Source: Gemmatimonadota bacterium
GTDB taxonomy: Bacteria; Gemmatimonadota; Gemmatimonadetes; Longimicrobiales; Gaopeijiaceae
Assembly (NCBI GenBank): GCA_028874905.1
Contig: JAPPGZ010000073.1
Location: 124,001-188,000, forward strand
DNA length: 64,000 nucleotides
Direction: 5' to 3'
Positions 6,246 to 52,204 of the stretch are shown here, piece after piece. A model generated the notes under the pieces. The model searched no databases, was not told where the DNA came from, and saw only the letters and a list, made by a program, of their open reading frames with translations. The position numbers and the translations under genes are program-made. Positions within the stretch are counted from its first letter, which is position 1; each line of letters starts with the position of its first letter.

Positions 6246-6319
6246 CCGGGAAACTTATCCGCTCCTGCGTTAGGTTTCCATTTGCGTCCGATTCGCCGCC
6301 CGCAACGGCCCGTACAGAT

Positions 6320-8071: not shown

Positions 8072-8081
8072 GGAGACGACC

Positions 8082-8498: not shown

Positions 8499-8602
8499 CA
8501 ACCCTGACGTAACGTAAGGGTCGCTCTTGCCCCGCCAGCGACGGCCGCCAACCCGAACGGATGCGGTCGGAAGGGCGGGGCTAACACTTTGCAAGAGGAA
8601 CT

Positions 8603-27472: not shown

Positions 27473-28821
27473 CGGTCCCTCCGAACCCATTTCATGACAA
27501 ACGAATCTGGCCCTAACGAACGTAGGAATCTCTTCCACTCATCCGCGTGCCGCTCCAGGAGCCCAACCAGCCGATCTTCCGCGTTCTCGGCGTGCGGAAG
27601 CACCTTCCCCACCTCGGCCGCATGCCGGCTAACGGTCGGTCTCGCTTCATCGTCGGCCATGTCCGCCAAGTCATCCATGTGCCGGATCCCTGCAATGGCG
27701 TAGTCCCGATATGCGGAAGTGTACCGTTCGAAGTCGGGGTCCAGGGCGGACTCCAGCGTCGCGGCACGCATGTCGGTGCTCACATAGGTCTGCGGGGGCT
27801 CAGTGTGGCCAGCCGCGTGAACGCTGACGCGCCTCAGCATGCAGGCGGCACAGACTCCGCAATGGCGCCACGATGCCCCGACGGAACTCCACCTATTGTC
27901 GCGCCAGCAGGACTTGGTAGACTGCCACGCGCCGTTGCCGTCAATGGCGACATAGCGTGCGAGGGTTTCCCCCTTCGTGTACCAGAGCCGGGGAAACTCG
28001 TAGCGAATGGGCCATTGGAGCAGAGCTATCAAGAGGTTCTCCATCCGATGGGTAAAGAGCGGGTGGCTTCGATAGTCACGGTTAGCATGGCCAACGCTCA
28101 CCAGCGCCGGCCCGAGCGCCCCTTGGCCACTTTCCGGAACGATGATTCGTCTCGCGCTGGTCAGGTAGGCCGCGAGTCCTGAGATCATCGCGAACTTGAA
28201 TCCGCGGCTCATGGCGGTTGCCTCGCGGCGCCTGGTTTTCAGGCGATAGGGAATCGAAACGAAAGGCCTCCTGTTGGCCTTGTTGTCTCCCTTTCCGCCG
28301 AGACGAACGCGTACCACGTCCTCGCCAAGACAGTCTCTGGCGAGTCCCGCAACTGCCAGGGAGTCCATGCCATCGCTATAGGCCAGGACGGCTTTAGACG
28401 GTGGGAACAGACGAAACCGGTCTCCGGCCGAGTCCTCGGGCCGGCCCTTGCGCTTGGCAAAGCTGATCGACCAGTGGTCACCCGTGACGAAACGAAGGGC
28501 GCGGAGTAAGCTGTCCCTGACCGCTGGCGCCTCCCAGCGTGCGGGGTCATCTACTGGGACACGAATCGACAGGCGTCGCGCCCATCCCATGGACGGACGT
28601 CGGCATGACAGGTCTGCGAATTCCACGCTAGCAGCGACAAGCATTGCATCGAAGATCACCGGCTCCCACTTGGCGAAGGCGTAGGATTCGAGAGCTGCCG
28701 TGGAGAAGTGAATGTCCCGAGTAAGCACGCAGTCGATCCAGCCATTCTGCCGCGAGCGTCCCACCTCGCGAACCGCAACCTTCGCTTCGGGAAGCTCACG
28801 GCGGACCGCTCGGCGGCTCAC
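27463..28821 (-). CDS. QueC-like (7-cyano-7-deazaguanine synthase family) defence protein
   Basis: This 452-aa protein has a PP-loop ATPase motif AYSDGMDSLA (SDGMDS at about residues 149-154) and a zinc site of four Cys (Cys305 and CGVCAAC at 321-327), as in QueC. It is about twice as long as housekeeping QueC, like the QatC and type IV CBASS QueC-like proteins. QueC makes preQ0; the defence-type relatives have been linked to attaching a deazaguanine to a protein. No queuosine genes are nearby. I chose the GTG at 28821, which overlaps the upstream stop as GTGA. The gene sits in an operon of 186-aa protein, QueC-like, XRE-ImmA and PIN. Confidence 0.85.
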   Translation of the reverse strand: MSRRAVRRELPEAKVAVREVGRSRQNGWIDCVLTRDIHFSTAALESYAFAKWEPVIFDAMLVAASVEFADLSCRRPSMGWARRLSIRVPVDDPARWEAPAVRDSLLRALRFVTGDHWSISFAKRKGRPEDSAGDRFRLFPPSKAVLAYSDGMDSLAVAGLARDCLGEDVVRVRLGGKGDNKANRRPFVSIPYRLKTRRREATAMSRGFKFAMISGLAAYLTSARRIIVPESGQGALGPALVSVGHANRDYRSHPLFTHRMENLLIALLQWPIRYEFPRLWYTKGETLARYVAIDGNGAWQSTKSCWRDNRWSSVGASWRHCGVCAACMLRRVSVHAAGHTEPPQTYVSTDMRAATLESALDPDFERYTSAYRDYAIAGIRHMDDLADMADDEARPTVSRHAAEVGKVLPHAENAEDRLVGLLERHADEWKRFLRSLGPDSFVMKWVRRDRWP

Positions 28822-38486: not shown

Positions 38487-40934
38487 TTACTTCACCTTCA
38501 GATTCACCATCATACTCCCGCAATCACACCGCAGGCTCTCCGCAGTGCCCTTTCTTGGCGCGACGTAGAGCCAAGACTCGCACGACGAACAACGCAGCTC
38601 CGCCAGCAAGCGCTTGAACGCTTCGACTACCTCTCTGAATTCCGCCTTCGTGAATTGCGCCCACTCGTTGAAATGGATGGCTCTGTTGAGGACCCACTGC
38701 TCGCCTTGGTAGGCATCCAGAGCCTCCTTCCTAGAGTTTTGTAGGGCTACGACCTGCGCCTCGGCTGCCTCGCTGCCCCACTTCTTCGCTGCCTTCACAC
38801 CGAGCTTTAGTAGTTGCCCGTGGCGCCCGATGACCGCCGAGATCAGGTCGCCTGCATCGTACGAGAAGTCACCACGGAAGGGCGGTTTCGCTCCGAGTCG
38901 ATCCGCCAGCTCCGCGCCGATGTACTCCATGTGTCGCCGTAGCCGGCCTGCGGCAACGGGCGTTTCACCTTTGGCGACATCGGACTCGATCTCGTCCCAA
39001 ATTCCCGCCGTCTGCTCCACGATCGGGCCCGTCTCGACGCTCCAATTCTGTAGAGTCAAACCGCCCCTCGACTCGACAAGCCCCTCGGTCTGCATCTGCT
39101 TTGCCCAGACCCTGTCGTGCGTCGTGATGATGAACTGGGTGTCCGGGAAGTGTGCTTTCAGCAATCGGCAGAACTCCTTCCGGTGACCACGGTCGACGGA
39201 CATCACCACATCGTCGAGGACCGCGAATCGGAAGCGGTCGCCGAGAAGATGCTTCATCAGCGCGAGGTAGAGGCACACCCCCATCCCGTCCTGGTGTCCC
39301 TCACTGTGGTAGGCGGCGGGGGCATGCAGGCCCGTGTCGTGGAAAGCCACCTGGAGATCCAGGCCCGCCTCGGCCTGGTCCAGCTTCACTTCGAATCCGC
39401 CCTCGTCCTCCGCGTTGATCTCCCGGTAGTATCTGCCGAACCGATCTTCCACAGACCGATACAACTCGCTCAGGTACGCGTCCGCCACGTCGCAGTACGT
39501 CTTGTACGTGGCCCTTCCCGCTTTGACCGTGAGCTCCGCACGCGTTCGTTCGCGCTGCGCAGTCTGCCAAGCCGAAAAGCGATCCTGAGCGCGCGTCAGG
39601 AAGGTCTGCGCCGCGACCTCCGCGCTCTGGTCCGGCGTGCTCTCGATCATTTGTTGGAGGGCATCGAGTTGGTCGTCGACGGCGTTTGGCGCCACGGTCC
39701 ATCCGTCCTCCAGCCGGTCGCGGCGCTCGGCAATTGACGCAACCGTGTCCAACCCGCCCGCGAAGGCCCTCAGATCCGAGGACCATCTCGCAAGCTCCTC
39801 GCCGAGCTCTTCCAAACCGTAGCGCTCGCCCAGAGGCTGTACGGGATCTATGAGCGCCGCAATTCGCTTCGCCTCGTCGGCGATCGCGGCGCCGTTGTCC
39901 AGCAGGCGTCGCCGGAGTGCCTTCGCTTCGTCGGCCTTGGCGAGCTTGGCGCGCAGGTGCGCCTTCAACGCTTCCACATCCTGCCAGCTGCTGTCGCAGA
40001 GCGGGCAGTCTGCGTTGTCCGCCAGCCGCAGTCCCGCCTCGACGAACGAGCGTCGAGTGATCGCTTCCAGGAGTGCCGGGTCACTGTCCAATGTGTCGAG
40101 GTCGCGCACGACACTTCGGACCGCGTCCTGACTGAGTGTGGCCAGGTCTGCCACGGCGCTCCGTAACGCTTCCACATCCCGAAGTGCGGAGTTCCTGTTG
40201 AAGCCCCCGTCGCCGGACGCCTCCAGGGTGCCGGCGGTGAAATCGGTATCCGGCACCAAGCGCGTGATCTCGCCGAGACCGAGGATTCCACGGTGCTGGT
40301 TGATTGCCGCGAGGATGTCCTCTGGTCTGGGTGAGGTGATATCAAGATGGAGGCGAAGCGCGTCCTCTGCGGTTCCGAGGGCACTCTTCGTGTGTCGTGC
40401 TGCGGTAGTGAGCTTGTTGAGGGCGGTCTTCAACACCCCGCGGGTCTGCCCGATGGCCTCCAGCTTCAGAAGCTCCTGGATCTCCTTCGACCGTTGCGCG
40501 GCCTCGACTATGATGTACTTGATGATCTCCCGACGTGTCAGCGTCAGCTCGGGATGATCGGCAACCTCTTCGATGATGCCCCTGATCTCGGGCTCGTCGG
40601 GCGCGAGGGTGAAGGCCCGTGGGTTCTTCACGTTCCGCGTCAAGACGGCCGACTTGTCCAACTCAGGCACGTAGAACTGAAGCGAGACCTCGGCGGAGGC
40701 GGGATCATGGCGACGGTCCACGTGGGGGCCGTGCGTCTTCACGCTCAGCCCACGGGTGCCCTTGCCGGAGAGCCGGGACATGACCCCCGTCAAGGCGAAC
40801 TCAATGGCATCGACCAAGCCACTCTTGCCCGACCCATTCGGCCCGGAGACGACGAAGTTCTTCCGGTCGGGCTTGACCTCCAGATCGCGGATTCCCCTGA
40901 GTTCCCGAATCGCAACCGACTCAATCTGAATCAC
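38487..40934 (-). CDS. Rad50/SMC-like ATPase with zinc hook and C-terminal zinc ribbon
   Basis: This 815-aa protein has Walker A GPNGSGKS (31-38), coiled-coil arms with a zinc-hook CPLC (310-313), a signature region YHSEGHQDGMGVCLYLAL (about 542-559) in place of LSGGQ, Walker B FAVLDDVVMSVD (570-581) and an H-loop TTHDR. After this comes an extra helical region and a C-terminal ribbon with CSSC and CDC. Rad50-like ATPases of this size act in DNA-end sensing and in Lamassu-type defence. Its start overlaps the 61-aa gene by 14 bp. No nuclease gene is directly beside it; the J-domain gene follows. Confidence 0.88.
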   Translation of the reverse strand: MIQIESVAIRELRGIRDLEVKPDRKNFVVSGPNGSGKSGLVDAIEFALTGVMSRLSGKGTRGLSVKTHGPHVDRRHDPASAEVSLQFYVPELDKSAVLTRNVKNPRAFTLAPDEPEIRGIIEEVADHPELTLTRREIIKYIIVEAAQRSKEIQELLKLEAIGQTRGVLKTALNKLTTAARHTKSALGTAEDALRLHLDITSPRPEDILAAINQHRGILGLGEITRLVPDTDFTAGTLEASGDGGFNRNSALRDVEALRSAVADLATLSQDAVRSVVRDLDTLDSDPALLEAITRRSFVEAGLRLADNADCPLCDSSWQDVEALKAHLRAKLAKADEAKALRRRLLDNGAAIADEAKRIAALIDPVQPLGERYGLEELGEELARWSSDLRAFAGGLDTVASIAERRDRLEDGWTVAPNAVDDQLDALQQMIESTPDQSAEVAAQTFLTRAQDRFSAWQTAQRERTRAELTVKAGRATYKTYCDVADAYLSELYRSVEDRFGRYYREINAEDEGGFEVKLDQAEAGLDLQVAFHDTGLHAPAAYHSEGHQDGMGVCLYLALMKHLLGDRFRFAVLDDVVMSVDRGHRKEFCRLLKAHFPDTQFIITTHDRVWAKQMQTEGLVESRGGLTLQNWSVETGPIVEQTAGIWDEIESDVAKGETPVAAGRLRRHMEYIGAELADRLGAKPPFRGDFSYDAGDLISAVIGRHGQLLKLGVKAAKKWGSEAAEAQVVALQNSRKEALDAYQGEQWVLNRAIHFNEWAQFTKAEFREVVEAFKRLLAELRCSSCESWLYVAPRKGTAESLRCDCGSMMVNLKVK

Positions 40935-41106
40935 GGCTCGCCTCCTGGGCCGCCCTCTCGAAGATGGCCACGAAATCGTTGGCTTTCGGCTTCTTCTCCG
41001 CCGCGAGGAGGGTACGCAGCTCTTCGACCGTTGATTCGCTCACAGAGTCCGACTCCAAGAGCTTGCTGTAGAACGAATCGAGAATCTCGTCGAGTACCTT
41101 GGCCAT
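40921..41106 (-). CDS. 61-aa partner protein of the Rad50-like ATPase
   Basis: A small acidic helical protein (MAKVLDEILDSFYSKLLESD, then VEELRTLLAAEKK). Its end overlaps the ATPase start by 14 bp, so the two are coupled. A GGAGAAAC ribosome site precedes the ATG. No family is recognised; size and position suggest an accessory or inhibitory subunit, as small partners of Lamassu-type ATPases can be. Confidence 0.7.
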   Translation of the reverse strand: MAKVLDEILDSFYSKLLESDSVSESTVEELRTLLAAEKKPKANDFVAIFERAAQEASRDSD

Positions 41107-41547
41107 GCGCTGTTTCTCCGGTAGGGATGATCTCTGGGCGTCCGGTGTCCGACGGGGGAGGGTCAGGGTACCAAGATAGTGTTGGGAGGTGGTTTGGGGC
41201 GTTGGTCCGGCCGACGGCGGTCGAGCGGCGACCTTCCCAGCGGGTGAGTGGGGACGTTGGACTGATTCGTCGCTCGCTTCCGGGGCGCGTCGGTCACAGC
41301 GTTTGGCGATGCGGATGTAATGTAGACTTTACCAAATGTATACTTCAGTTGACATTTTCTCCGAACACCCATCGAACTCTCTGCGACTCGACGGCCCAGC
41401 TGGCCCGGTTGCTGGCCGAAAGCGGATTTCGTGCTCCGAGTCGGGCCATGTCCTGGTTCCTCTCTTGACATGTCCGAAGCCCCGTCGGAGCGTGATCCGC
41501 CGGACTTTCACCTGTAGGCCAGTTTCAACTCGACCAAAGGAGCTAGA
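41107..41547. other. Divergent intergenic region
   Basis: No gene is seen in these 441 bp between divergent genes. Around 41316-41355 there is an A+T-rich patch (AATGTAGACTTTACC, then GTATACTTCAGTTGACA) that probably holds promoter elements. The rest matches neighbouring GC. Confidence 0.45.
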
Positions 41548-42423
41548 ATGGCGGCCGGTTACGGCGATGGACGTGTGACGATAGGACAGAACATGGTAGG
41601 CCGGGTGGCGGTAACCAACGTCACAGCCGTCCCCGCGCTGAGCCCACGAATCCGCTTTGAGCTGTCTTGGACCTTGGGGCATCGCGTTCGCTCGCGGGAG
41701 GGGCTTCCGCCCGAGGAGTACCAGGTGATCGACTTTGGGGGCGAATTGCGAATGGAGTCAGACGATCTCTTCGTCGGCACACTCGTGCGAGACGGACCGA
41801 GACACTCACTCCGTTCACTCAGCTATGTGGATACCCGGACAGGATCCGTAGCTCTCGATCTAGGTATGGATCGGTTGGAACGGCTTGAAGAGCGTCGGGC
41901 TGGCGGTGCTCTCACAATGCAAATGAACCTATGGTCCCGCATCGAGATAGGCCCAACGACAACCGATGCGCGCATCGAGGGGATCCGGATGCAGATCCCG
42001 CGCGACGATTGGCTCACATCGCTGGCCGCACTCACCGGCGATCAGGTCGAGGTCCTAGAGATCCGTTACCACCTCCTGTACGCGGACCGTTACAGGTCTA
42101 GCCTCGCGGAGCTCCACCTCGCGCGAGATGCGGCGGAGCGAGGCGACTTCAACGGCGCAGTCCTACAGGCGCGCAAGGCAATCTACCTCATGGAGGAGTC
42201 GGTGAAGGCAGCGACCGGGGAAGTCCTCAAGGCCGCCCTGACGGAAAAGATCGACAAACGGCATGCGGACCTGTACGGTGGGATCGTCAAGCGCGCGAAG
42301 GACATGGGCAACATCACCGCGCACCGCGCCGAGGCTCGTGAGTACACCCGTGTCGAAGCCCTGTTCGCCATCCGGCTCGCGACCATCACGCTGGAGGTCG
42401 TGGCAGGGCTGTTGGCGGAGTAA
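41548..42423 (+). CDS. Hypothetical protein with a HEPN-like C-terminal helical region
   Basis: This 291-aa protein starts at an ATG with an AAAGGAG ribosome site. The first 150 residues are beta-rich (VGRVAVTNVTAVPALSPRI, GTLVRDGPRHSLRSLSYVD). The C-terminal 120 residues are long helices (HLARDAAERGDFNGAVLQAR, KAIYLMEESVKAATGEVLK) like HEPN or TPR-type bundles, but without a clear RxxxxH site. It stands alone between divergent Rad50-like and convergent PIN genes. Function unknown. Confidence 0.72.
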   Translation: MAAGYGDGRVTIGQNMVGRVAVTNVTAVPALSPRIRFELSWTLGHRVRSREGLPPEEYQVIDFGGELRMESDDLFVGTLVRDGPRHSLRSLSYVDTRTGSVALDLGMDRLERLEERRAGGALTMQMNLWSRIEIGPTTTDARIEGIRMQIPRDDWLTSLAALTGDQVEVLEIRYHLLYADRYRSSLAELHLARDAAERGDFNGAVLQARKAIYLMEESVKAATGEVLKAALTEKIDKRHADLYGGIVKRAKDMGNITAHRAEAREYTRVEALFAIRLATITLEVVAGLLAE

Positions 42424-42518
42424 GGGCGAGGTCACGAACGGCGCGGGCACGCGTGGCTGGCGTTCGGGCCATCGGCGACCAGCCATACGCCCGCCGTCAC
42501 TGGAGCACCGCAGGCCAG

Positions 42519-43028
42519 TCACGGCAGCTTTTCAAGAGATCTCAGCCGCTTGGCGATTTCCTGTCGAGGTAGGAAGACGGTATTGTCGCTTTGCCAGCAC
42601 TTGAGGGCGTCCATCAGTTGGGATGTGGGGCAGGCATCCGTGACCGCCAGCTCGTCGACTACCCACAGTACGCCGTGCACGCGAAGACCTTGCCGGTTGG
42701 CCACCTTGCGGAGCTGGGCGTCTCCGGTCAGCAGGATCCCGCGATTCGCAAGCGCGGTGACCAGACAGAGACAGTCGTTTGCCGATAGGCCGCAGTGATC
42801 GTCCTTGAGGGCAAGAGCTTGCTCGACCTCAGCGGGCGTGAGGTCGTAAGTAGTCATTCCGTGTCTGTCTAGGTACTGCCATTCCTGGCCGGAGAAGTGG
42901 AGAACTTCCGACTCTCGTACCGGCAACGGGATCACGAGCCGGTAGGGCAGTCTGCAGAGAGCTTCCAGCAGCCCCCCTTTGCGGAGGTCGATCAGGCAGG
43001 AAGCGTCGTTCACGATGACGCAAGTCAC
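42519..43028 (-). CDS. PIN-like nuclease overlapping an XRE-ImmA/IrrE gene (cassette 2)
   Basis: This 169-aa protein has an N-terminal VIVNDASCLIDLRKGGL with the first acidic residue, a central LSANDCLCLVTALANRGILLTGD that supplies later acidic residues, and a helical tail. This is the PIN order also seen at 25684-26313, though the two sequences differ strongly. The ATG overlaps the XRE-ImmA/IrrE stop by 4 bp (43025-43028), so translation is coupled. Confidence 0.8.
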   Translation of the reverse strand: MTCVIVNDASCLIDLRKGGLLEALCRLPYRLVIPLPVRESEVLHFSGQEWQYLDRHGMTTYDLTPAEVEQALALKDDHCGLSANDCLCLVTALANRGILLTGDAQLRKVANRQGLRVHGVLWVVDELAVTDACPTSQLMDALKCWQSDNTVFLPRQEIAKRLRSLEKLP

Positions 43029-44104
43029 TGTCTAGCCGGGCCACTTATCTGCGCCTCGACCGCGTCGAGAGGCTCGTTGAGCAGGGCGGCGGCGCGGACC
43101 GGCGAAATCAGTTCTTCGCCTATGGCACGCCAGACGAGCTGCTTGAAGCGGTGAGGGGTTTCGAACGCTCCGAATCCGCAATCATCGCGGATGGGTTCTG
43201 GTTCGGATTTGCGCCAGGGGCGGGCGAAGGTACGAAACGCATGTGCCACGGTAGCGGGCTGTAGGACGCCGACCTGCCCGAGGCGGACCAGCATGGCAGA
43301 TGCCGAAACGCCGTAGGTGTGCTTGAGACGGATGATCTCGTAGTAGGTGATGCGGCGACGTCCGACTCCGACCTCCTCAAGGAGGTGGCGGCCCGGGACG
43401 AGGAAGGCGCCGGCGAACCGATTCATCGCTCTTTCGACCTTGATGGCCGGGTTGCCGGTCGAACGGATGATCCTGTGTGCGACTTCATGGGCGAGAGTGA
43501 GTCGCTTACGCTCTACGGTGGATTGGCTGGAGACCACGACCGCATCGGCGATGGGCCTGCCGCCTCGCAGGACTTGGCAAGCCAAGCCGCTGATCCGCTC
43601 GGGCAAATCGGCTTCGATGACCCTGATTCCCCTTTCTTCGAGTAGGGCGCACAGGCTGGGAACAGGGTCCCTACCGAGTTTCCACGCGTCGCGGAGTTCA
43701 TCGGCTCTCTGGTCGATCTCCTCTTCGGTAGCGACGCTGTCGTAGCGCAGGCCCGCGAACGAGTCGCCCCCCGGCGGGATGTCGAGAATGTCCTCGATGG
43801 CCAGATACCGCTCGAGGCTGTCGATCACCAGGGCTTCCGCCGTGGCTCTGTCACGAGCGCTGGTACTGGAATGCTTGCGGAACTCGAGCCCGTCGAGCGC
43901 CTCGACCTGGGCGCTCATGAGGAAGTCCAGCGAGACATCGAGCGCCCTCCCCAACCCCACCAACACCGCGGAGGAAGGCATCATCTTGCCAGCCTCGTAC
44001 TTGCTGATGGCCTGCGGGGTGACCTTCGGATCCATCCGCTCGGCGAGTGCCTTCATGGAAAGGCCTGCTCGCTTGCGGGCGAGTCGAAGTCGTCGTCCGA
44101 ACAT
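43025..44104 (-). CDS. XRE-HTH plus ImmA/IrrE metallopeptidase (cassette 2)
   Basis: This 359-aa protein has an N-terminal XRE helix-turn-helix (about 3-60: RRLRLARKRAGLSMKALAER, QAISKYEAGK) and a zinc peptidase domain with HEVAH at 206-210. The start at 44104 is supported by AGGAGAA just upstream; the longer open frame runs into the promoter. It is divergent from the ubiquitin-like operon across about 140 bp with a shared control region (44130-44158), so it probably regulates that operon as a cleavable or protease-type repressor. The PIN gene follows with a 4-bp overlap. Confidence 0.92.
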   Translation of the reverse strand: MFGRRLRLARKRAGLSMKALAERMDPKVTPQAISKYEAGKMMPSSAVLVGLGRALDVSLDFLMSAQVEALDGLEFRKHSSTSARDRATAEALVIDSLERYLAIEDILDIPPGGDSFAGLRYDSVATEEEIDQRADELRDAWKLGRDPVPSLCALLEERGIRVIEADLPERISGLACQVLRGGRPIADAVVVSSQSTVERKRLTLAHEVAHRIIRSTGNPAIKVERAMNRFAGAFLVPGRHLLEEVGVGRRRITYYEIIRLKHTYGVSASAMLVRLGQVGVLQPATVAHAFRTFARPWRKSEPEPIRDDCGFGAFETPHRFKQLVWRAIGEELISPVRAAALLNEPLDAVEAQISGPARQ

Positions 44105-44129
44105 GCGGTTCTCCTGGGTCTCGGGATGG

Positions 44130-44158
44130 TTGACAGATAATCTATCGTATTGTAGAGT
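44130..44158 (+). promoter_or_regulatory. Promoter of the ubiquitin-like operon
   Basis: A perfect -35 TTGACA (44130-44135), 17-bp spacer and -10-like TAGAGT (44153-44158) face the Ubl gene. The minus strand of the same stretch has TTGAAA and GATTAT 16 bp apart, facing the XRE-ImmA gene. GGTTGA and TCAACC arms bracket the region (about 44128 and 44161), and GATA/TATC half-sites lie in the spacer, making this a likely shared operator. Confidence 0.6.
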
Positions 44159-44247
44159 TTTCAACCATGGGTTTCAGTCTCCCGTCTCGCCCGGAGAATC
44201 GGGAGACGTGACGCTCCACAATGATAGCCAAGTCAGAGGAGGCGGGC

Positions 44248-44490
44248 ATGGATCGGTACGAGTACAAGGTGAACGGGGAGACGTTCTTCTCCGAGAAGCG
44301 AGCGGTCGACGCAGCGGTGCTGCTGAGGGCGGCGTTCGCCGGAAAGGCGGTTGGCGAGGACCCCGACAAGACGGGTTACGTCCTGAGGGTTCCGGACTCG
44401 GATGTGACTTTCGTGTCGGGACAGGTCGTGGAACTCGACAAGTACGGCATCTTCCGGGCGGCGCCCGAGCAGGGGGCGCCCTTCGCATGA
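44248..44490 (+). CDS. Ubiquitin-like (multiubiquitin/YukD-type) protein
   Basis: This 80-aa protein reads as a beta-grasp fold: DRYEYKVNGETFFSEKRAVD, then a helix VLLRAAFAGK, then YVLRVPDSD and VELDKYGIFRAAP, in the order of the Multi_ubiq family (PF14452). It is a single domain. The C-terminus is EQGAPFA with no Gly-Gly; the JAB protease encoded downstream might trim it. The ATG at 44248 follows GAGGAGG. The next gene overlaps its stop by 4 bp (ATGA). It is the first gene of a conjugation-type operon. Confidence 0.72.
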   Translation: MDRYEYKVNGETFFSEKRAVDAAVLLRAAFAGKAVGEDPDKTGYVLRVPDSDVTFVSGQVVELDKYGIFRAAPEQGAPFA

Positions 44491-44912
44491 GCCGGAACTC
44501 CGAGCAAATGGCGGCGGAACTGGCCGAGCTGAACTACGAGACGGCCCCGTTCCGGGCACCGAATGACCAGGGTGGTGCGGATGGTGTCCGATTCGAGTAC
44601 CGGATCCAGGACGGCAGTCGCGTAGGCGAGACGGTGACCTTGGGGTTGGCGCTGCACCCGAACGAAGGCGAATGGCCCGAAGTGGCGCCGCATTGGCTGT
44701 ACCTGTCGCCACCGGATGACGTCCTGGCGGAGCAGGTGAGAGGGTCCCGGCAAAGAGGAGTCGTCAGACCCTATGAGGGTGAAGACGGGCTTGCCTGGAT
44801 GGCGATCAGCGCGCCGCCCAGAGATTTTTGGGACGCGATCGAGCCGCCGGACACCAAGAGCATGAAGACGTATCTGACCCGGCACATCCGCCGGATCTGG
44901 AGGGTGCGTTGA
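44487..44912 (+). CDS. E2-like (Prok-E2 type) protein without cysteine
   Basis: This 141-aa protein has an E2/RWD-like layout: helix MAAELAELNY, strands VRFEYRIQDGSRVGETVTLG, LALHPNEGEWPEVAPHWLYL followed by SPP (the 'P-x-x-x-P-P' E2 element), Trp residues, and a terminal helix TYLTRHIRRIW. It resembles the prokaryotic E2 families found next to JAB-E1 fusions. The translation contains no cysteine at all, so it cannot form an E2 thioester itself. It overlaps the Ubl stop (ATGA) and the next start (TTGA). Confidence 0.72.
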   Translation: MSRNSEQMAAELAELNYETAPFRAPNDQGGADGVRFEYRIQDGSRVGETVTLGLALHPNEGEWPEVAPHWLYLSPPDDVLAEQVRGSRQRGVVRPYEGEDGLAWMAISAPPRDFWDAIEPPDTKSMKTYLTRHIRRIWRVR

Positions 44913-46420
44913 TCCATCGGGTCCTGGTCCGGGAAACGTTGCACCGGAGGCTGGCGGACCACCTCCTGAGCCGACTGCGCCGGGGCGAGTACCAGGAGGA
45001 GGCCTGCCTGGCACTGTGGCACCGGGGGGACGGCGTTAGTCGTTACACTGGAGTTCTGGGCGAGATCATTCTGCCCGAAAATGGGGATCGGAGTCTGCAC
45101 GGAAACGTTACGGTGCACAGCGGCTACATGAACCGCGTGCTCGACTTGGCGCTGAAGGTGCGGGCGGGGGTGGCCGTCATCCACAGTCATCCTGGATCCG
45201 GCTGGCAAGCATTGAGCGACATTGACGAACACGCGGAGCGCGATCTGATCGCACCATTCATTCGCGAGACACGCCTGCCTCTCCTTGGGATGACCATGGG
45301 TGCCGATGGTTGCTGGAGCGCCCGGTTCTGGCGGGAATCGGGAGGCGGCGCCCACCCCGCTTACTGCAGGGAGGTACGGCGTGTGGGCACGCGGTCCACC
45401 AGCGCGGACTACCGACCAGGTGCGCACCCTCCGTACGTCCGGAGAGAGAGCTTGGTGCGGACGCTGGACTGTTGGGGATTTGAGGCGCAGGCCCGGTTGG
45501 CTCGTACTCACGTCTGCGTTGTCGGGGCTGGGAGTGTCGGTTCCATCGTCCTCGAGTGTCTCGCGCGCACAGGCTTCGAGGAGATCACGATCGTCGATCC
45601 GGACCGCGTCGAGGACAGGAATCTGGATCGATTGGTCTACGCTGACCGGAGCCGTGTCGGACTCCGCAAGGTGGAAGCAGCGGCGGCGCGTCTTCGACGG
45701 GTAGCCACGGCAGCGAGACCGCTCATTCGCCCAGTGCCACTGTCGGTTCGCACCGAACAGGCGTACCGTAGCGTGGCGGACGCGGACGTCATCCTGTGCT
45801 GTGTCGACAACGCCGAGGCGCGCGAGGTCCTCAACCACGTTGCGTACTCGAACTGCATCCCGTTGATCGATGGCGGTGTCTTGGTGGAGGCTCGGGACCG
45901 CTTGTTATCCGCCAAGTGGCGTGTCCACCTGGTTGGGCCGGAGATGCGGTGCCTGCGTTGTCGGGGTCAGTACACCAGCAGTGACGCAAGGGATGAACGG
46001 ATGGGAATCCGTCGCCGAGGACGCTACATCGACGATGGCGAGGATCGCGGGCCGGAGCCGGGGCAGAACACGATGGCATTCTGCAATGCCGTCGCGGCGG
46101 AAGAGATGCGCATCCTCATACGCTACCTGGTCGGTCAGGAATGGTGGCATGACACCGGACCGACTTCGGGCCAGTGGTCGTCCGAGCACCGTTTCGTGGA
46201 AGCCGAAACGGATTGGTTCGAACACCCTGCCAGGTGCGTCGAAAGCTGTGAGTTCTCGCACAAGCGGCTCGGGCTGGGGGCGAACGGACGGCCGACATAC
46301 CCGTTCCTTCAGGCGCCGAGAGACGGCTGGCGCGAGCGCCTGAGCGATCTAGTCCGGTGGCGTCTTGGGAGAATGGGCCGGAGAGCATACTGGAAGGGAT
46401 TCCGGCGGACGGCGAGATGA
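44909..46420 (+). CDS. JAB (JAMM) protease fused to a ThiF/E1-like activating domain
   Basis: This 503-aa protein has an N-terminal JAMM peptidase: HSHP at 92-95 then S103 and D106 (H-x-H-P-x7-S-x2-D), with an upstream Glu near VLGEII. The C-terminal half is an E1/ThiF adenylation domain: VVGAGSVGS (204-212), IVDPDRVEDRNLDR and DNAEAREVLNHVAYSN, plus a zinc site CLRC (348-351) and CVESC (443-447). E1s adenylate the C-terminus of a Ubl; JAMM proteases process or remove it. The TTG at 44909 overlaps the E2-like stop as TTGA, so the three genes form one coupled operon. Confidence 0.9.
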   Translation: MIHRVLVRETLHRRLADHLLSRLRRGEYQEEACLALWHRGDGVSRYTGVLGEIILPENGDRSLHGNVTVHSGYMNRVLDLALKVRAGVAVIHSHPGSGWQALSDIDEHAERDLIAPFIRETRLPLLGMTMGADGCWSARFWRESGGGAHPAYCREVRRVGTRSTSADYRPGAHPPYVRRESLVRTLDCWGFEAQARLARTHVCVVGAGSVGSIVLECLARTGFEEITIVDPDRVEDRNLDRLVYADRSRVGLRKVEAAAARLRRVATAARPLIRPVPLSVRTEQAYRSVADADVILCCVDNAEAREVLNHVAYSNCIPLIDGGVLVEARDRLLSAKWRVHLVGPEMRCLRCRGQYTSSDARDERMGIRRRGRYIDDGEDRGPEPGQNTMAFCNAVAAEEMRILIRYLVGQEWWHDTGPTSGQWSSEHRFVEAETDWFEHPARCVESCEFSHKRLGLGANGRPTYPFLQAPRDGWRERLSDLVRWRLGRMGRRAYWKGFRRTAR

Positions 46421-46599
46421 GATGAAGGCCGACGTTGCCGGGCCGCCGAGTCCTACGAGCCACGCGATCCGACGAACACTCGCTGGACGGTCACGCCGTT
46501 GGACGGGCCCGGCAAGCAACAGGCATAGCAAGAGACGTCGGCAGTCCCCGGGGCGGCCCGGAAGGTTGTCCGGCGACCGTAAACACAAGGAGGAGTTAC

Positions 46600-46917
46600 A
46601 TGTCGGAGATGTCACAGCAGCTTACAGTTCCCGCTAGGCTGGTATCGTGGGCCGAACCGTTCCTATCCTTCCTGAAGGGGAATGACGGGCTACCCACCGT
46701 GAAAGTGGTCGTAGCGGTACTCCTGCTGTTTACCTGCATGGACCTTGTTGACCACTTCAATTTCGGTGAAGGGTGGGACGGTGATCAGAAGCTGATCGCA
46801 CTCGGGATTATAGCCGGGACAAGAGTCGCAAGTGTATTGGTGGCAGAAATCAGCTCGGCCATCAGGAGCAAGCAACACTCCAATGGCGGCCGTTCCGATC
46901 CCGACACAACGGCGTAG
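46600..46917 (+). CDS. Small membrane protein downstream of the Ubl operon
   Basis: This 105-aa protein has two hydrophobic segments: VKVVVAVLLLFTCMDLVDHF and LIALGIIAGTRVASVLVAEI, the second more amphipathic. A strong AAGGAGGA ribosome site precedes the ATG at 46600. It follows the JAB-E1 gene on the same strand after 179 bp without a gene or clear terminator, so it may belong to the unit. A small membrane protein would fit a membrane-disrupting effector or a conjugation target, both inferred. Confidence 0.7.
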   Translation: MSEMSQQLTVPARLVSWAEPFLSFLKGNDGLPTVKVVVAVLLLFTCMDLVDHFNFGEGWDGDQKLIALGIIAGTRVASVLVAEISSAIRSKQHSNGGRSDPDTTA

Positions 46918-47097
46918 GTCGCCAGCCCGCGTGCCGGTTGTCGATCGTTGCAGGTCGGGATGTCCAACTCGGCTGGGACAGCCGTGGTCGCCCTCAACCT
47001 CTCTCCCTCCACCAGCAGTCACGGTGTTGCTGACGGGAGAAGCCACGAAATGTAAACTATAGTGTACTTAATGTATGGTGCAGTTTCCATTCCTGCT

Positions 47098-48813
47098 CTA
47101 TACCCGGAGTATCCGCCCCAATGTCGCTCGCAGCACGCCGCCGCTCGTGGCCGCGGTTCCAGGGCCATGGCCCTCGCCTCTCGCCACGACCGGAGCCATC
47201 GGAATCGCGCCGACCCCCTTCAGCTCTTCAGGCAGCCGCTCGGCCGACGAAACCACCGGGCCACCACGCCGCACACCATCCTCCGGCTTCGCAAAGAACT
47301 GAAACTCCCCACCCGGGTACAGGATCCACACCGACCGCGCGTCCGGAATCGCGTCGCGGTAGGCGTGCATCTTGTAGATGTCCGCACGCTTGAACGTACC
47401 CGCCCGCTCTTCGGTCTTCGGGTCGTCGGCGTCCTTGTCGTCTGCGGCGAGTCCCACGTCGGCGAGTCCGTGGACCCGGAACTTCGCGTCGAACAGGTGA
47501 AGGCCAGCGTTCGACCCGGCCGGGATCGAGAGAGCGATGTCAGGAATCAGCGGCACGGAGTAGGAGTGCCGTTGTCTCTTCCGTGACCTGGAGAAGCCCT
47601 GGTTGTACTCCAGGCGCACGCCCGGATCCCATTCGAAGGTTCCGCCGGCGGTGAAGGCGGTCTCGAAGGGACCGGTGGCCAGCCGCTCCGATCGAACCGG
47701 CGGCCTCCCCAGCACCGTCGAGATCTCGTCAACCAACCGGAAGAAGGTCCAAAGCTCGTAAAGAAGCGCGATGTTCTTGAGTTCGAGGAGGTCGCGCATG
47801 CCGTCCTTATCGAGCGGGATCGTCGGCGCCAGGCGAATCCGGGAGAAGTGCTGGAGCACGCGGCGATACCCCCGCCGTCGCTGGAGCACGGTGGACGAGA
47901 AGGGGATCCGCACCATTCTTCCGACTTCTTCCCACATGCTGTGCCGAGCGATCGGCATCAGCGACGCCTCCATGCGGTCGCAGTCCCGCAGCAGGTTCTT
48001 TCGGAACGCGTTGGGCTCCGGGGAGCTGACCGCCGACCGCATGCGACCGATGATCGTCCGCGCCTGCCCGATGAACGCTTTCACGAACCGGTTCTCAGGG
48101 GTATCGGTTGTCGGCCTGATCTTCCGCTCGGAGACGAACTCCGGGAGACGCCAGCGGAGTCGTTTAGCGAGCCTCGCCCCGGCGGGTGAGAGAGACGACG
48201 CCTCCACGGACATCCCGGGCCGGGTCACGAGATCGAGCGGGGTGTGCGCGTCCACTCTGGTCATGGCTTCAATGCGGACGTCGCGGCGGTGGCTGCGCCA
48301 CAGGCGGTGCGGCTCTCTGACGATCATCTCGAGGGCGGGAAGCAGGCGTACTTCCTCCGGGGCTCTGTCCGAGAGGATGTAGCGCAGGTAGACGAATGCG
48401 TGGTAGAGGACATCGTCGCGGGGGGCGGTGCTGACCGAGTAGCGCCCGGCGGCCGCTTCGTTCGCCGAGAACGGGAGGGTGGTAGCTGCGTCGGTCAGTT
48501 CGCGGAGCATGGCGTCGAACTGGTTGCCGTCGAACTTGCGCGTGACCAAGTCCAGGGTCCCGAGATGGGGCAGTTCGAGGGTACCGACCGAGTTGACGAG
48601 GTTGAGGATGAGGGCGTTGGTTCCCACGCGGCGCCAGTTCGCACGCGGCAACTGGCTCTCTATCTGTGCGAGGGCCTGATCGTCGCCTTCGACGACCCAC
48701 CGCCGTTCGCTCTGCAAGCGGTAACCGTCGCCTGTTTCCTCGGCTGACTCGCGCGAGCGATGCTCGTGGATGGTGACTCGCGAAGCCCGTCCGACGCCGG
48801 CAGAGCCGTTCAC
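47098..48813 (-). CDS. McrC-like DUF2357 / PD-(D/E)XK nuclease subunit
   Basis: This 571-aa protein has a DUF2357-type N-terminal and middle region (NRFVKAFIGQARTIIGRMRS, ELKNIALLYELWTFFRLVDE) and a C-terminal PD-(D/E)XK nuclease (DUF524 type): LIPDIALSI, GLHLFDAKFRV with the D-x-K core, and ADIYKMHAYRDAI. It pairs with the McrB-like GTPase/AAA+ gene, whose stop is 7 bp upstream; the GTG at 48813 is therefore the likely start. In McrBC-type systems this subunit cuts DNA when the ring translocates on modified DNA. Confidence 0.88.
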   Translation of the reverse strand: MNGSAGVGRASRVTIHEHRSRESAEETGDGYRLQSERRWVVEGDDQALAQIESQLPRANWRRVGTNALILNLVNSVGTLELPHLGTLDLVTRKFDGNQFDAMLRELTDAATTLPFSANEAAAGRYSVSTAPRDDVLYHAFVYLRYILSDRAPEEVRLLPALEMIVREPHRLWRSHRRDVRIEAMTRVDAHTPLDLVTRPGMSVEASSLSPAGARLAKRLRWRLPEFVSERKIRPTTDTPENRFVKAFIGQARTIIGRMRSAVSSPEPNAFRKNLLRDCDRMEASLMPIARHSMWEEVGRMVRIPFSSTVLQRRRGYRRVLQHFSRIRLAPTIPLDKDGMRDLLELKNIALLYELWTFFRLVDEISTVLGRPPVRSERLATGPFETAFTAGGTFEWDPGVRLEYNQGFSRSRKRQRHSYSVPLIPDIALSIPAGSNAGLHLFDAKFRVHGLADVGLAADDKDADDPKTEERAGTFKRADIYKMHAYRDAIPDARSVWILYPGGEFQFFAKPEDGVRRGGPVVSSAERLPEELKGVGAIPMAPVVARGEGHGPGTAATSGGVLRATLGRILRV

Positions 48814-48820
48814 GGGCCGG

Positions 48821-51800
48821 TCACTCGATGAACGACGTGAAACCGCGGTCCCGAAGTCGGTGGAGCATTCGCAAGACCTTCGCTCCGGTTCGCGGGTAGG
48901 CCGGGGAGTCGGTGTCAGCGTCAGGAGCTTCCGGGCTGTTGGACTCCGTTTCGTTTCCTTCGGCGGCGGCGTCGCCGGAGGGTGACTGGGTCTTGAATCT
49001 GGCCACCAGGCGGCCCTTGACCACTTTCCAGTCATCCAACTCGACCTGCTCATCCTTCTTGGGAACATGGTCGCTGCCACGCAAGGCGAACTGAAAGATC
49101 TCTTCGAGAGGAGACTGCAGCTCCTGTTGGGTTCCGTGGAACTTCGGGAGAACCTTCTGCAGGAGGGCCAGGTCGAAGGCTGCGGTGACCGCCGCTTCCG
49201 TGGTCGCCTCAGCAGCCTGTTCCCGGGCCAGATTGACGAATCGGGCGATCTCGTTTGCGACGCGGTATCCGAAATGCCGGTGGTGTCGTTCTAGGATGCC
49301 GTGGAGTCGCACGAGGGCTTTCTGATGTTCGCTGGTCTCCTTGCTGAACTCCTTCCAGTCGTCACGGCTCGGCTTCCAGTCTTCGCCCCCGGAGGAGCCG
49401 GATGGCAGGAGATCGAGTGAGCCCTGCACGCCATCCAGATTCAGTCCGGAGGCTTCCTCACCGGCTTCCCCCTTCGTGAACGCTTCTAGGTCGACTTGGT
49501 CGAACTCGATGGTGAATGCGCGGTCGAGCACTTTGGGGCTGAACATGTAGGTCGTCTCGTCGACGTTCACGGTGCCCGTGAAGAGGACGTTGCCGGGTAC
49601 TTTCAGCTGTCGCGGGACTTGCGGGCCCGATTCGGACTCGCCGCTCTCGATAGCTTCGTTCTCGTGAAGCGCAATATCCTCATCCGATTCAAGCGCTGAC
49701 AGGAAGTCCGAAAAGTAGTGCTCCACACGGGCCAGATTCATCTCGTCGAGAATGACGAAGAAGGGATGGGGCTTCTCCCCGGCTGTAGCGGCCCTCTCTT
49801 CCTCGGCGCGGGCGTGAAGCAGCAGGCTCAGGAACTGGGTGGTCGCGTACTCGTTGGTTAGGGGGTTGAGATAGCCGAGCAGACCGCGGTTGTCGACCCA
49901 GTCGGGACGGACGGGTATGACTTCGTAGTTTTTGGCTCTCTGCTCAACAACGTCTGTGTCCGACAGCCCGATTTCGAGTTCGTCAGGTTCGTCCTCTTCG
50001 CCTGGGCATACTCGAAGCCAGAACTGATCTCCCTCCTTCAGATTCGCATGGAACCATTCTCGGAAGTCCCCCTTGAAGTACAGCATGGGGTGTCTCCCCT
50101 GTGCCAGAAAGGCACTAAGTCTGATACGGCCATTCGGGTACCGAACCCATATCCGTGGCCCGTTCCCGGGATCTGCAGTTGTATCGATGGTGAGGTGATT
50201 GCTGATGGCGACAGGCAAACGTAGCCTTGAGAATCTGATGGTGTACGGCCTCACATCGATGCCAACGGCATCGTCCGGGGGTCGTGCTACGCTCCTCTTC
50301 AGCACGGGTCCTACGTGTTGTGCCACAGCCTTGGCGATCTTCGTCTTTCCGGTGCCCGAGATGCCTGTCAGAATGGCGAAGCGCTTGGTTTGGAGGGCGA
50401 GGATGTAGTTGGCAACCTGGTCCCGTGAGAACAGCAGGTCGTTGTCTTCAAGAGACTGGGTAAGTGAGAACACAGGCCGTGGATTAGGTTGGGGTTTCGG
50501 TCTTGACTCGTCACCAAAGTGCCGCTCGAAAGCCGGGCTGAAGTAGAATGCTGCGGTTGCCATCGGATCCCAGTGTTTCCGTCCATATTTGCGGGGCAAC
50601 TCGGTCAGGGCTCGCTCGAGGGCCACGAAGCGCTCTCCCAGCGATGCATCGTCCGCCATCGCAGGAACGAGGCCTACTAGTTCCAGCTTCGTAGCCTTGG
50701 CCGCCATGTGCAGGATTCCCGACCACTTCTCTGGATTCTGGAGGAAGAGTAGGGCGCTCGCAATCGGAAGAGATTCCGTGATGTAGTTTCGCACGTTGGC
50801 GCCCGTCTCCCACATGCGGTCAAGCCGTCCTGCCTCAGTGCCAGTGCCGTGAAGAAGGGCGATGAGTGCTTTCCTGAAGACTGGAAGATCCTCTTCGAAG
50901 TTGCGGTACGCGTGGGTGTCCCGGTTCTTCGGGAAGGCGAGATTCGGCGAGAATAGCCCAGGCGTTCTGCCACCGTGCGCGTCGAGTTCATTGAAAAACG
51001 CGAAGAAGTCATCCGGCAAAAGCGATTCGATGGCTGCCGCGGTGCCGAACAGTTGTTTGAAATGGCTCCGAGCCCGATCAAGGAGTTCTTGCCGCTCGAT
51101 CAGGTTCCGGGCATCGGCCTCTTCCTCGAACTCCGTCAAGGCCCGTTCGATTCGGGGGTCGTACTCATGTCCCGCCTCGCGAGCACGCTTTTCCGCCGCG
51201 TTCCGCTCATTCGCTTCCTGTACCGCGACCCAGACGAAGCCCTGGACATCGATCATGTGCCTGGGCTTATACTCCCCAAGAGCTTCACGGAGTTCCAAGT
51301 AGGCCGTGCGTACCCGGGCGTACTCCTCCCCCGAAGGCTCGACGCCGAGCTTGCCACCCCACTGGCCGATTTCCAACAGCGTGCGGACTGTTCTGGGCTT
51401 GATTAGGACCTCTTCGTCCGGATAGAGGAAGAAGAGGAAGTAGGTGGGCATGGCCCATCGGTTGACATTGGGGTGCAAGCCCATGGATCTGATTCGATCG
51501 GAGTACCGATCTAGGCGCTGGGGGGTGTCGCCATCGCCGTACAGGAGATCAAGGAACGCTTCACAGAATCTTCGATGGTCAAGATCGTCGTGGTTGAGTA
51601 ATGCTAGATCCCCGCCGCGGAACCGGGTGGTAAGGAGATTGTTGTGTTTTGCGATCTTCTCGAGCCGCCCGATCACTTCGCCATAGTTACCATTGTCGAT
51701 CAAGCTCCGAAGGGCGTGCTCGGAGAGGAGTTCCCTAGCCTTCTCAACCGTCGCCAGCTTGTACTTGACCTCATCGCAACGTCCGCCGTCGAACCGTGGA

Positions 51801-51925
51801 TCTCTGAAGCCGAGCCATCCCGGCAACCTTGATCGAACGAGCGCAAGAAGACGGGACTTGCTGGGCACGTAGGTCTGGCGGCGAGCGAGTGCTTCACGGA
51901 GCGTAGTCGGGGTGTGGGACTCCAT
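48821..51925 (-). CDS. McrB-like AAA+ motor with a large insertion after Walker A
   Basis: This 1034-aa protein has a long N-terminal sensing region (about 1-480, helical with a fold I cannot assign), then the McrB AAA+ core: Walker A GISGTGKT (521-528), Walker B FFVILDEMN (722-730), and TGTVNVDETTYMFSPKVLDR. Between about 555 and 665 there is an extra beta-rich domain (RIWVRYPNGRIRLSAFL, NLKEGDQFWLRVC) before the family PVRPDWVDNRGLLGYLNPLT. The ATG at 51925 is the natural start. The McrC-like gene follows directly. Confidence 0.9.
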   Translation of the reverse strand: MESHTPTTLREALARRQTYVPSKSRLLALVRSRLPGWLGFRDPRFDGGRCDEVKYKLATVEKARELLSEHALRSLIDNGNYGEVIGRLEKIAKHNNLLTTRFRGGDLALLNHDDLDHRRFCEAFLDLLYGDGDTPQRLDRYSDRIRSMGLHPNVNRWAMPTYFLFFLYPDEEVLIKPRTVRTLLEIGQWGGKLGVEPSGEEYARVRTAYLELREALGEYKPRHMIDVQGFVWVAVQEANERNAAEKRAREAGHEYDPRIERALTEFEEEADARNLIERQELLDRARSHFKQLFGTAAAIESLLPDDFFAFFNELDAHGGRTPGLFSPNLAFPKNRDTHAYRNFEEDLPVFRKALIALLHGTGTEAGRLDRMWETGANVRNYITESLPIASALLFLQNPEKWSGILHMAAKATKLELVGLVPAMADDASLGERFVALERALTELPRKYGRKHWDPMATAAFYFSPAFERHFGDESRPKPQPNPRPVFSLTQSLEDNDLLFSRDQVANYILALQTKRFAILTGISGTGKTKIAKAVAQHVGPVLKRSVARPPDDAVGIDVRPYTIRFSRLRLPVAISNHLTIDTTADPGNGPRIWVRYPNGRIRLSAFLAQGRHPMLYFKGDFREWFHANLKEGDQFWLRVCPGEEDEPDELEIGLSDTDVVEQRAKNYEVIPVRPDWVDNRGLLGYLNPLTNEYATTQFLSLLLHARAEEERAATAGEKPHPFFVILDEMNLARVEHYFSDFLSALESDEDIALHENEAIESGESESGPQVPRQLKVPGNVLFTGTVNVDETTYMFSPKVLDRAFTIEFDQVDLEAFTKGEAGEEASGLNLDGVQGSLDLLPSGSSGGEDWKPSRDDWKEFSKETSEHQKALVRLHGILERHHRHFGYRVANEIARFVNLAREQAAEATTEAAVTAAFDLALLQKVLPKFHGTQQELQSPLEEIFQFALRGSDHVPKKDEQVELDDWKVVKGRLVARFKTQSPSGDAAAEGNETESNSPEAPDADTDSPAYPRTGAKVLRMLHRLRDRGFTSFIE

Positions 51926-52204
51926 CTGGCTTTCTCTAGGTCTGGAGAAACGGGCTGCGGAGTGAATCAATCTGACTCGTCCCGCTGCGGCTGGCCACCC
52001 AGTTTCGGTCCAGTCGAAGCGCCCCGGCGGGCCCAACAACCGACGAGGCTGCTCGCCATAGCCTTCCCCGTGATTCACAGCCCTCGAGTCGGGTCACTTG
52101 ATCGGATCGCCTGTCTTCGCTTGATTCCCATGCTGCAAGACACACAGGGATTCCGGCCAACACCGGGACGCCCACTGCACGCCATACAGGAAGGGGACGT
52201 GTCG

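Follow-up and report, generated by a model that had tools for sequence, protein, structure and literature searches.

We have analysed a window of 64,000 nucleotides from contig JAPPGZ010000073.1 of a Gemmatimonadota bacterium, in which five genes at 42519-46420 are arranged into two divergent operons (Table 1). The minus-strand operon encodes a PIN-domain nuclease and XRE-ImmA, a helix-turn-helix (HTH) domain fused to an ImmA/IrrE (M78) protease; the plus-strand operon encodes a ubiquitin-like protein (Ubl), an E2-like protein and a JAB-E1 fusion. We propose, with a probability of about 0.6, that XRE-ImmA is a portable antitoxin-repressor which, when cut, would release the PIN nuclease and switch on the immune operon facing it. 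The proposal draws on features that can be read from the sequences compared, namely the anatomy of the locus, its conservation, a dyad shared by both promoters, the residues at the domain junction and in the protease, and the exchange of partner genes. Sensing of single-stranded DNA, self-cleavage and masking of the toxin are brought in by analogy with known systems. The parts are each of a known kind, and the coupling between them was not found described in the literature searched, among the matches listed.

The genes of each operon are joined by 4-bp overlaps: GTGA between PIN and XRE-ImmA, ATGA (44487-44490) between Ubl and the E2-like gene and TTGA (44909-44912) between the E2-like gene and JAB-E1. 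Reading of the open reading frames bears out the genes and the latter two overlaps reported in an earlier, sequence-only reading of this DNA and adds the first. The Ubl start is the ATG at 44248, where the relatives align, and not 44221. The shared control region placed by that reading at 44130-44158 is exactly a promoter-like TTGACA-17-TAGAGT site, which lies inside the dyad. The same gene order recurs across phyla, so the arrangement is not due to chance.

Conservation of the five-gene unit

One scan of genome contigs gave eight loci. One of these (L020) is a JAB-E1 remnant and was left out; the remaining seven (L013-L019) and the window make up a set of eight loci with a close Ubl-E2-JAB-E1 set. 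XRE-ImmA is upstream and divergent in all eight (in L014 it spans two frames and adjoins the end of the contig), and the PIN gene follows it in six of the seven loci whose contig reaches that far. These loci bear out the view that a Ubl conjugation operon and an XRE-ImmA/PIN pair diverge from a common control region. The neighbourhood search that the sequence-only reading had named as a check on its six-gene system keeps the XRE-ImmA arm and, with one gap, the PIN gene, but the membrane gene counted as the sixth member has no counterpart in the loci from elsewhere.

The close loci come from three phyla, Gemmatimonadota, Pseudomonadota and Acidobacteriota (Gemmatimonadota, Alphaproteobacteria, Immundisolibacterales and Bryobacterales), and their JAB-E1 proteins are 69-90% identical, which speaks for transfer between phyla. 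Exchange can also be seen on a smaller scale. Window 43744-44944, a 1.2-kb tract, is 99-100% identical to L013, with 85-93% identity on either side, which makes it probable that a single exchange carried the HTH half, the control region, Ubl and E2.

A second copy of the unit (L144), now decayed, is present in the genome of L016. It retains the order PIN, XRE-ImmA, Ubl and E2 and has three recombinase-looking genes between the XRE-ImmA pieces.

The predicted toxin-antitoxin arm

XRE-ImmA carries the protease motif HEVAH and, at the junction of the HTH and protease domains, the pair F75-R76. A pattern search finds F-R (W-R in two) near this junction in all 30 XRE-ImmA proteins compared, and the motif is also present in eight of eight plasmid relatives. 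Sequence searches of solved structures gave no match to XRE-ImmA at E<=0.001 and only chance-like ones to PIN.

The same build is known from VapBC52 (NAR 2026, PMC13273310), in which an HTH-IrrE antitoxin cuts itself with single-stranded DNA, probably at F75-R76; self-cleavage is thought to free the PIN toxin. A cysteine switch after HExxH is described there for VapB52 and, as reported in the same paper, for CapP. The likeness of the window pair to VapBC52 lies in the HTH, the ImmA/IrrE protease, the F75-R76 junction and the PIN partner, and rests on architecture and motif rather than on a sequence alignment. The differences are that no cysteine switch is visible in the window protein and that a dyad separates the pair from a divergent immune operon. 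The pair also resembles RosmerTA (RmrA/RmrT), since XRE-ImmA matches the PADLOC RmrA profile at 1.2e-43. An HTH-M78 fusion followed by a toxin gene and the FR junction motif, as in RosmerTA/VapBC52-like pairs, are both found here, and the cysteine switch is not seen. Fused COG2856-Xre proteins with PIN or RelE, and a predicted three-part COG2856-Xre system, were described by Makarova et al. (2009), and ImmA with PIN-like partner domains by Ernits et al. (2023, PMC10440598). The available text on RosmerTA and on the pairs of Makarova et al. mentions no facing Bub or CBASS (cyclic oligonucleotide-based antiphage signalling system) operon, whereas the window pair faces a Bub operon. Judged by motif and gene order, this arm belongs with toxin-antitoxin pairs already known (RosmerTA/VapBC52-like), and by analogy the PIN nuclease is better read as its predicted toxin with XRE-ImmA as the antitoxin.

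Another system of related build is PD-lambda-2 (PMC9519451), HigB with an Xre-peptidase. It too pairs an HTH-M78 fusion with a toxin, and a protein matching PD-Lambda-2_B (1.7e-30) faces a multiubiquitin operon in L047. It differs in having a HigB-like toxin, another gene order, a third component and an XRE-ImmA of another family.

A second XRE-ImmA is encoded at window 25684-27538 (-). It has 416 amino acids (aa), with FR at 84, and is followed by a PIN-like gene downstream (PADLOC PDC-S70, without a Pfam match); no Ubl relative was found beside it.

The conjugation arm

JAB-E1 matches Pfam ThiF at 3.1e-37 and, below the cut-off of that family, Prok-JAB at 0.073. The best solved match to a profile of 18 JAB-E1 proteins is Citrobacter BubCD (9ea4; 2.2e-65, positions 4-413), and the window protein alone aligns to it over both domains at 1.4e-22. 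Residues E30, H92, H94 and D106, which we take to be a JAMM pattern, are invariant in 18 of 18 proteins, as are glycines and acidic residues of the E1 part. Neither Ubl nor the E2-like protein of the window has a Pfam match of its own. Among aligned relatives, Multi_ubiq (PF14452) is matched by 10 of 17 Ubl proteins and Prok-E2_E (PF14462) by 7 of 19 E2-like proteins, in both cases at E up to 1. Profile comparison with hhalign gives 91% for Ubl against other Bub Ubls and 94% for the close-family E2-like proteins against other E2-like proteins. The Ubl profile matches solved multi-ubiquitin structures; the E2-like profile has no match among solved structures. The E2-like protein of the window is without cysteine and no cysteine position is common to the 19 relatives, in all of which Ser108 is invariant. 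We presume that the Ubl would be BubA and the E2-like protein BubB.

In the fifth operon type (6e) of Iyer et al. (2006) a cysteine-free E2/RWD protein lies between Ubl and JAB-E1. The window operon has the same features, an N-terminal JAB fused to E1, a cysteine-free E2/RWD-like protein in the middle and a Ubl of the multiubiquitin group; it differs from Bub in its single Ubl domain. By these features the right arm is a member of the known Bub family, and the shared layout points to Bub being type 6e. JAB-E1 gave no relative in the viral contigs searched or, at E<=1e-10, in phages, which speaks against a viral or phage home.

Bil operons consist of separate BilA, BilB, BilC and BilD genes, and their E2 has a cysteine. 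They have Ubl, E2, JAB and E1 functions in common with the window operon. In the window, JAB and E1 are fused, the E2-like protein has no cysteine and the BilD match is weak (2.4e-06). The fusion and the missing cysteine rule out a Bil identity, and "Bil-like" in the sequence-only reading is to be corrected to Bub/type 6e.

Partner genes of XRE-ImmA

With XRE-ImmA as query we found 21 places in 18 of 148 related genomes (E<=1e-25) and six places in five of 196 genomes of the order of G100 (E<=1e-50). These were judged on flanks of about 1.5 kb, and some loci end at contig edges. Ubl, E2 and JAB-E1 are beside only three of the 27 places: those in the window genome (G000), in a genome of the same genus (G003) and at G100:C11. 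An exclusive pairing of XRE-ImmA with Bub is thereby ruled out.

Wider flanks were taken for 20 places (G004:C509, G081:C252 and G071:C92 were left out). In eight of them (L175, L177-L183), which belong to the window's own family, a 130-aa gene faces an XRE-ImmA that is 73-76% identical, and there is no PIN; the one member of this family of about 130 aa that was scanned has no Pfam or PADLOC match. Four others face CBASS genes: a patatin effector and a cyclase in L188 and L189 (the latter also with an E2), TRIP13 and a cyclase in L190, and a cyclase and an E2 in L191. PIN is present in L188, L189 and L190. The remaining eight have other facing genes or are cut. Additionally, we examined eight plasmid stretches, seven from 47 records matching XRE-ImmA and one from 28 matching PIN. 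In four the facing genes carry a CBASS annotation, preceded in three by a DUF2188 gene, and in a fifth they are a nucleotidyltransferase and a SLATT gene; PIN is present in six of the seven chosen by XRE-ImmA (in L198 it is in two pieces). Pairs of XRE-ImmA and PIN also occur where there is no Bub or CBASS operon, namely in L145, in L146 (with a short PIN) and at window 25684-27538. Across 30 loci around XRE-ImmA relatives (20 widened, two stand-alone and eight plasmid) there is no Ubl, E2 or JAB-E1.

On a tree, the nine Bub-labelled XRE-ImmA rows need four partner changes, at least two of them on well-supported branches; many forks are open and long branches meet. With several partner changes, a single origin of the Bub-linked XRE-ImmA is unsupported. 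On these comparisons XRE-ImmA is a swappable controller, because it faces Bub, CBASS or other genes. Within the close family XRE-ImmA is always beside the Ubl operon, but the ImmA/PIN arm is not particular to Ubl operons.

The predicted operator

The dyad in the window (44129-44165) scores 14/16, and none of 300 shuffles is as good. The same dyad, near GTTGACAA-N20/21-TTGTCAAC, is present at 12/16 or better in 28 of 30 regions upstream of XRE-ImmA, where at most 5 of 300 dinucleotide shuffles are as good (31 loci were tried, one of which is without that end). It lies 19-32 bp from the XRE-ImmA start codon and is kept across relatives with different partner operons. In several loci the arms covary, GTTTACA occurring with TGTAAAC and GTTGATAA with TATCAAC. 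Seven of the eight plasmid loci, which were fetched after the motif had been defined, score at least 12/16, a level reached by no more than 3 of 300 single-base shuffles of each.

Promoter-like sites on the minus strand also overlap the window dyad, so that one dimer bound there could shut both operons. A MAFFT alignment had pointed to a 7-bp loss in the window control region; this is ruled out by the dyad search, which shows the full 37-bp spacing.

Controllers of other Bub operons

A JAB-E1 profile was searched against 398, 297 and 395 genomes from three phyla and 52 operons were taken, including four that belong to the close family. Of the places listed, a partial one was dropped, as was another whose coordinates and score duplicate those of a place in a different genome. 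Peptidase_M78 is found within 6 kb of 26 of the 52 operons against about 0.4 expected (computed with 131 places; the table sum is 127, which leaves the result unchanged), and 21 of these genes are upstream and divergent. No M78 was found within 6 kb of the other 26. Seven of the M78 genes, in a frame of 350-500 codons, are HTH-M78 fusions: those of the window, G003, G100 and G103 (the close family), G469, G489 (with a weak HTH) and G619. PIN follows in five of the seven, including G469 (L102), where it is 33% identical. G489 has a 110-aa partner without family assignment, and G619 ends near a contig edge.

Among plasmids, ten actinobacterial records matched (E<=1e-30), of which eight were examined. 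In six, an HTH-M78 protein is divergent to a multiubiquitin operon (below the M78 cut-off in L139 and L140, and by annotation and alignment in L141); L046 and L143 have none. The partner of the HTH-M78 protein is annotated as a RelE/ParE toxin in L047 (with a sub-threshold HigB-like match) and L139. L140 and L141 have a related open reading frame, L048 has a 122-aa partner without family assignment, and no partner was seen in L142. With RelE/ParE-type or other partners beside these plasmid HTH-M78 proteins, a toxin-antitoxin-like pair facing a Bub operon is, by gene order and family matches, an arrangement that recurs with other toxins.

Association of Bub operons with DNA-damage regulators has been reported (PMC13373217), and the same group finds CapW or CapH+CapP with 219 of 544 Bub operons, among which fused forms may be included. 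Like CapH+CapP, which control CBASS and Bub operons, the window protein combines an HTH repressor with an ImmA-like protease beside an immune operon with a candidate operator. The difference is that CapH+CapP are two separate proteins, whereas the window has one fused protein and a PIN gene. CapW, CapH+CapP and CapK+CapS are the three kinds of Bub controller named in PMC13373217; the window operon is instead faced by a one-piece XRE-ImmA with a PIN partner. In VapKSC and CapK+CapS (EMBO J 2026, PMC13373217) one sensor type serves Bub operons and a VapC-like PIN toxin at separate loci, whereas in the window both appear to be served by a single protein at the same locus.

Several other arrangements were seen around Bub operons. 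Upstream of the operon in L024 (10161-13601) an M78 protease is fused to a UvrD helicase, and proteins of like size (about 1,100 aa) with an M78 match occur in L103, L106, L109, L133 and L136, some facing away from the Bub operon. Another Bub clade (L022 9999-11761, L110 and L123) has two further genes downstream, one for an AAA ATPase (identified as AAA_21 in L022) and one for a protein of 161-169 aa; the latter has a weak PIN_9 match in L022 and none in L110 and L123.

Proposed mechanism and its significance

At rest, XRE-ImmA would sit on the dyad, hold down expression of both its own and the Ubl operon, and mask the PIN nuclease. A build-up of single-stranded DNA, from phage attack or DNA damage, may be the trigger on which the ImmA domain severs its own protein at F75-R76, parting the HTH from the protease. 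With the operator vacated, Ubl, the E2-like protein and JAB-E1 would be made, and PIN would be freed. Two outputs are predicted: Ubl would be attached to targets via the cysteine-free, serine-containing E2, with the JAB domain reversing this, and RNA cleavage by PIN would slow or stop the cell. The sensing of single-stranded DNA and the self-cleavage are modelled on VapB52 and on CapP, the latter as summarised in PMC13273310. Repression of the Ubl operon and the role of Ser108 are steps that we infer. As a portable cassette, the XRE-ImmA/PIN pair would act elsewhere on CBASS operons through a like operator. The sequence-only reading had ImmA sense phage or damage and release the operon, and the adjacency in eight of eight close loci, the conserved dyad and the analogy with VapB52 (PMC13273310) make it the likely sensor and releaser.

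A broader claim is that one self-cleaving protein serves as antitoxin and as repressor of any immune operon placed across a conserved dyad of 35-37 bp, be it Bub, patatin-type CBASS, TRIP13-type CBASS or probably others, a single cut coupling toxin release to immune induction. This is tentative, and we put it at slightly less than even odds. If it is true, the cell cannot arm the operon without freeing the toxin, and Bub operons are one client of the alarm. Repressor-toxin pairs of this kind are also found opposite further antiviral operons, and this hints at a portable alarm by which arming of a defence is coupled to toxin release.

In the literature on Bub/Ubl operons with toxin-antitoxin, ImmA, CapP or CBASS, no description of a Bub or CBASS operon faced by a one-piece XRE-ImmA with its PIN gene was found among the matches listed, in the text available. 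If a toxin-antitoxin repressor is common to Bub and CBASS, single-stranded DNA becomes a testable trigger for Bub operons, and there is a reason for a toxin beside an immune operon, because the same switch would arm defence and release a cell-stopping nuclease. The three-part COG2856-Xre prediction of Makarova et al. (2009) would also become open to direct tests, for which the operator, the cut site and a client operon are all specified.

The following points weigh against the antitoxin-repressor proposal. In 28 of 29 XRE-ImmA sequences inspected, that of the window included, the stretch of 16 residues downstream of HExxH is free of cysteine, and as the cysteine of the cysteine switch is not seen the latch must differ from that of VapB52. 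One protein of the 30 (L174) has HDxxH in place of HExxH. In PD-lambda-2 the Xre-peptidase was toxic and the HigB-like part rescued (PMC9519451), so the direction of toxicity should not be taken for granted. PIN appears dispensable for the pairing, because L019 keeps XRE-ImmA without it. With regard to the operator, L187 and L115 fail the dyad threshold, and the window dyad (14/16) does not exceed the lowest score among the dyads facing the 130-aa gene (14 to 16). The motif was framed after the 30 regions, many from near relatives, had been viewed, which makes the plasmid loci the fairer test; among these L197 fails. Among distant Bub operons, the controller is often of another kind, or none was recognised. 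Finally, although Ubl operons had been described in the sequence-only reading as known in phage defence, protection by Bub operons has not been shown according to PMC13373217.

Alternative explanations

XRE-ImmA could be only a one-piece CapH-CapP, a DNA-damage controller, with PIN a co-induced immune effector and not its toxin. Small M78 proteins (<350 aa) occupy this position, upstream and divergent, in 12 of the 52 Bub operons, several of them adjoining a small HTH-looking gene (mostly judged without a family scan), and XRE-ImmA is without PIN in the eight loci facing the 130-aa gene and in L019. We nevertheless consider this unlikely: pairs occur without a recognised immune operon (L145 and, with a short PIN, L146), and the overlap of PIN and XRE-ImmA fits the usual layout of toxin-antitoxin pairs, whose genes overlap or abut. 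VapBC52, in addition, is a toxin-antitoxin pair of the same build (PMC13273310). The two arms might instead be independent neighbours, the pair being an addiction module that stabilises the Bub genes without regulating them. That the pair travels alone and with other partners, with XRE-ImmA relatives in 47 plasmid records, would fit, but the dyad and the promoter-like site of the Ubl operon overlap, and the divergent place kept across phyla is that of known controllers (PMC13373217), and this explanation seems to us quite improbable.

A direct link between the arms, in which conjugation of Ubl to XRE-ImmA or PIN governs how stable or active these are, has as its sole point the constant co-occurrence in the close family. 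The 30 loci around XRE-ImmA relatives, several of them facing CBASS, do without Ubl, E2 and JAB-E1, and toxins differ beside other Bub operons, which leaves it very unlikely. Least credible is the six-gene system of the sequence-only reading, with the membrane protein as effector. The membrane-like open reading frame does start 179 bp past JAB-E1 with a good ribosome-binding site, but the protein has no relative in 198 loci from elsewhere or in 97 other, related genomes. DNA homologous between window 40901-52200 and the nearest relative, L013, is confined to 42544-46338, from PIN to JAB-E1, and stops within JAB-E1, so the membrane gene is outside the shared block. The lack of relatives and this position rule it out as a part of the unit, and nothing links it to the other five genes.

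Feature locations and neighbouring genes

Table 1. Features of the divergent locus and its control region (window positions)
Feature	Position	Strand	Evidence
PIN-domain nuclease, predicted toxin, 169 aa, GTG start	42519-43028	-	Pfam PIN 7.1e-07; alignment with relatives
XRE-ImmA, 359 aa, HTH fused to ImmA/IrrE (M78) protease, predicted antitoxin/sensor/repressor	43025-44104	-	Pfam HTH_3 2.5e-14 and Peptidase_M78 6.5e-14; PADLOC RmrA 1.2e-43
Predicted operator dyad GTTGACAG-N21-TTTTCAAC, 37 bp, over divergent promoters	44129-44165	.	Score 14/16
Promoter-like TTGACA-17-TAGAGT for Ubl operon, inside dyad	44130-44158	+	Consensus scan
Ubl, single ubiquitin-like domain, 80 aa, without C-terminal GG	44248-44490	+	Multi_ubiq matches of relatives; profile comparison
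E2-like protein, cysteine-free	44487-44912	+	Prok-E2_E PF14462 matches of relatives; profile comparison
JAB-E1 fusion, BubCD-like	44909-46420	+	Pfam ThiF 3.1e-37; BubCD 9ea4 matches
Small membrane-like protein, outside unit	46600-46917	+	Without relatives; beyond conserved block

The unit lies in a likely defence island, since an SMC-like ATPase (38487-40934, -) and McrBC-like genes are nearby. The latter, at 47098-52078 (-), encode a DUF2357/PDDEXK_7 protein and a large protein with weak AAA matches, and McrBC-like is our own reading of them. JAB-E1 of L016 is directly followed by genes for an AAA ATPase and for a helicase resembling GajB (6164-9044; 4e-262), a Gabija-like arrangement. Adjoining the PIN gene of the window is a gene for a 291-aa protein without family assignment (41548-42423, +), a relative of which is encoded near a distant Bub operon of another genome (L029 5128-6039).

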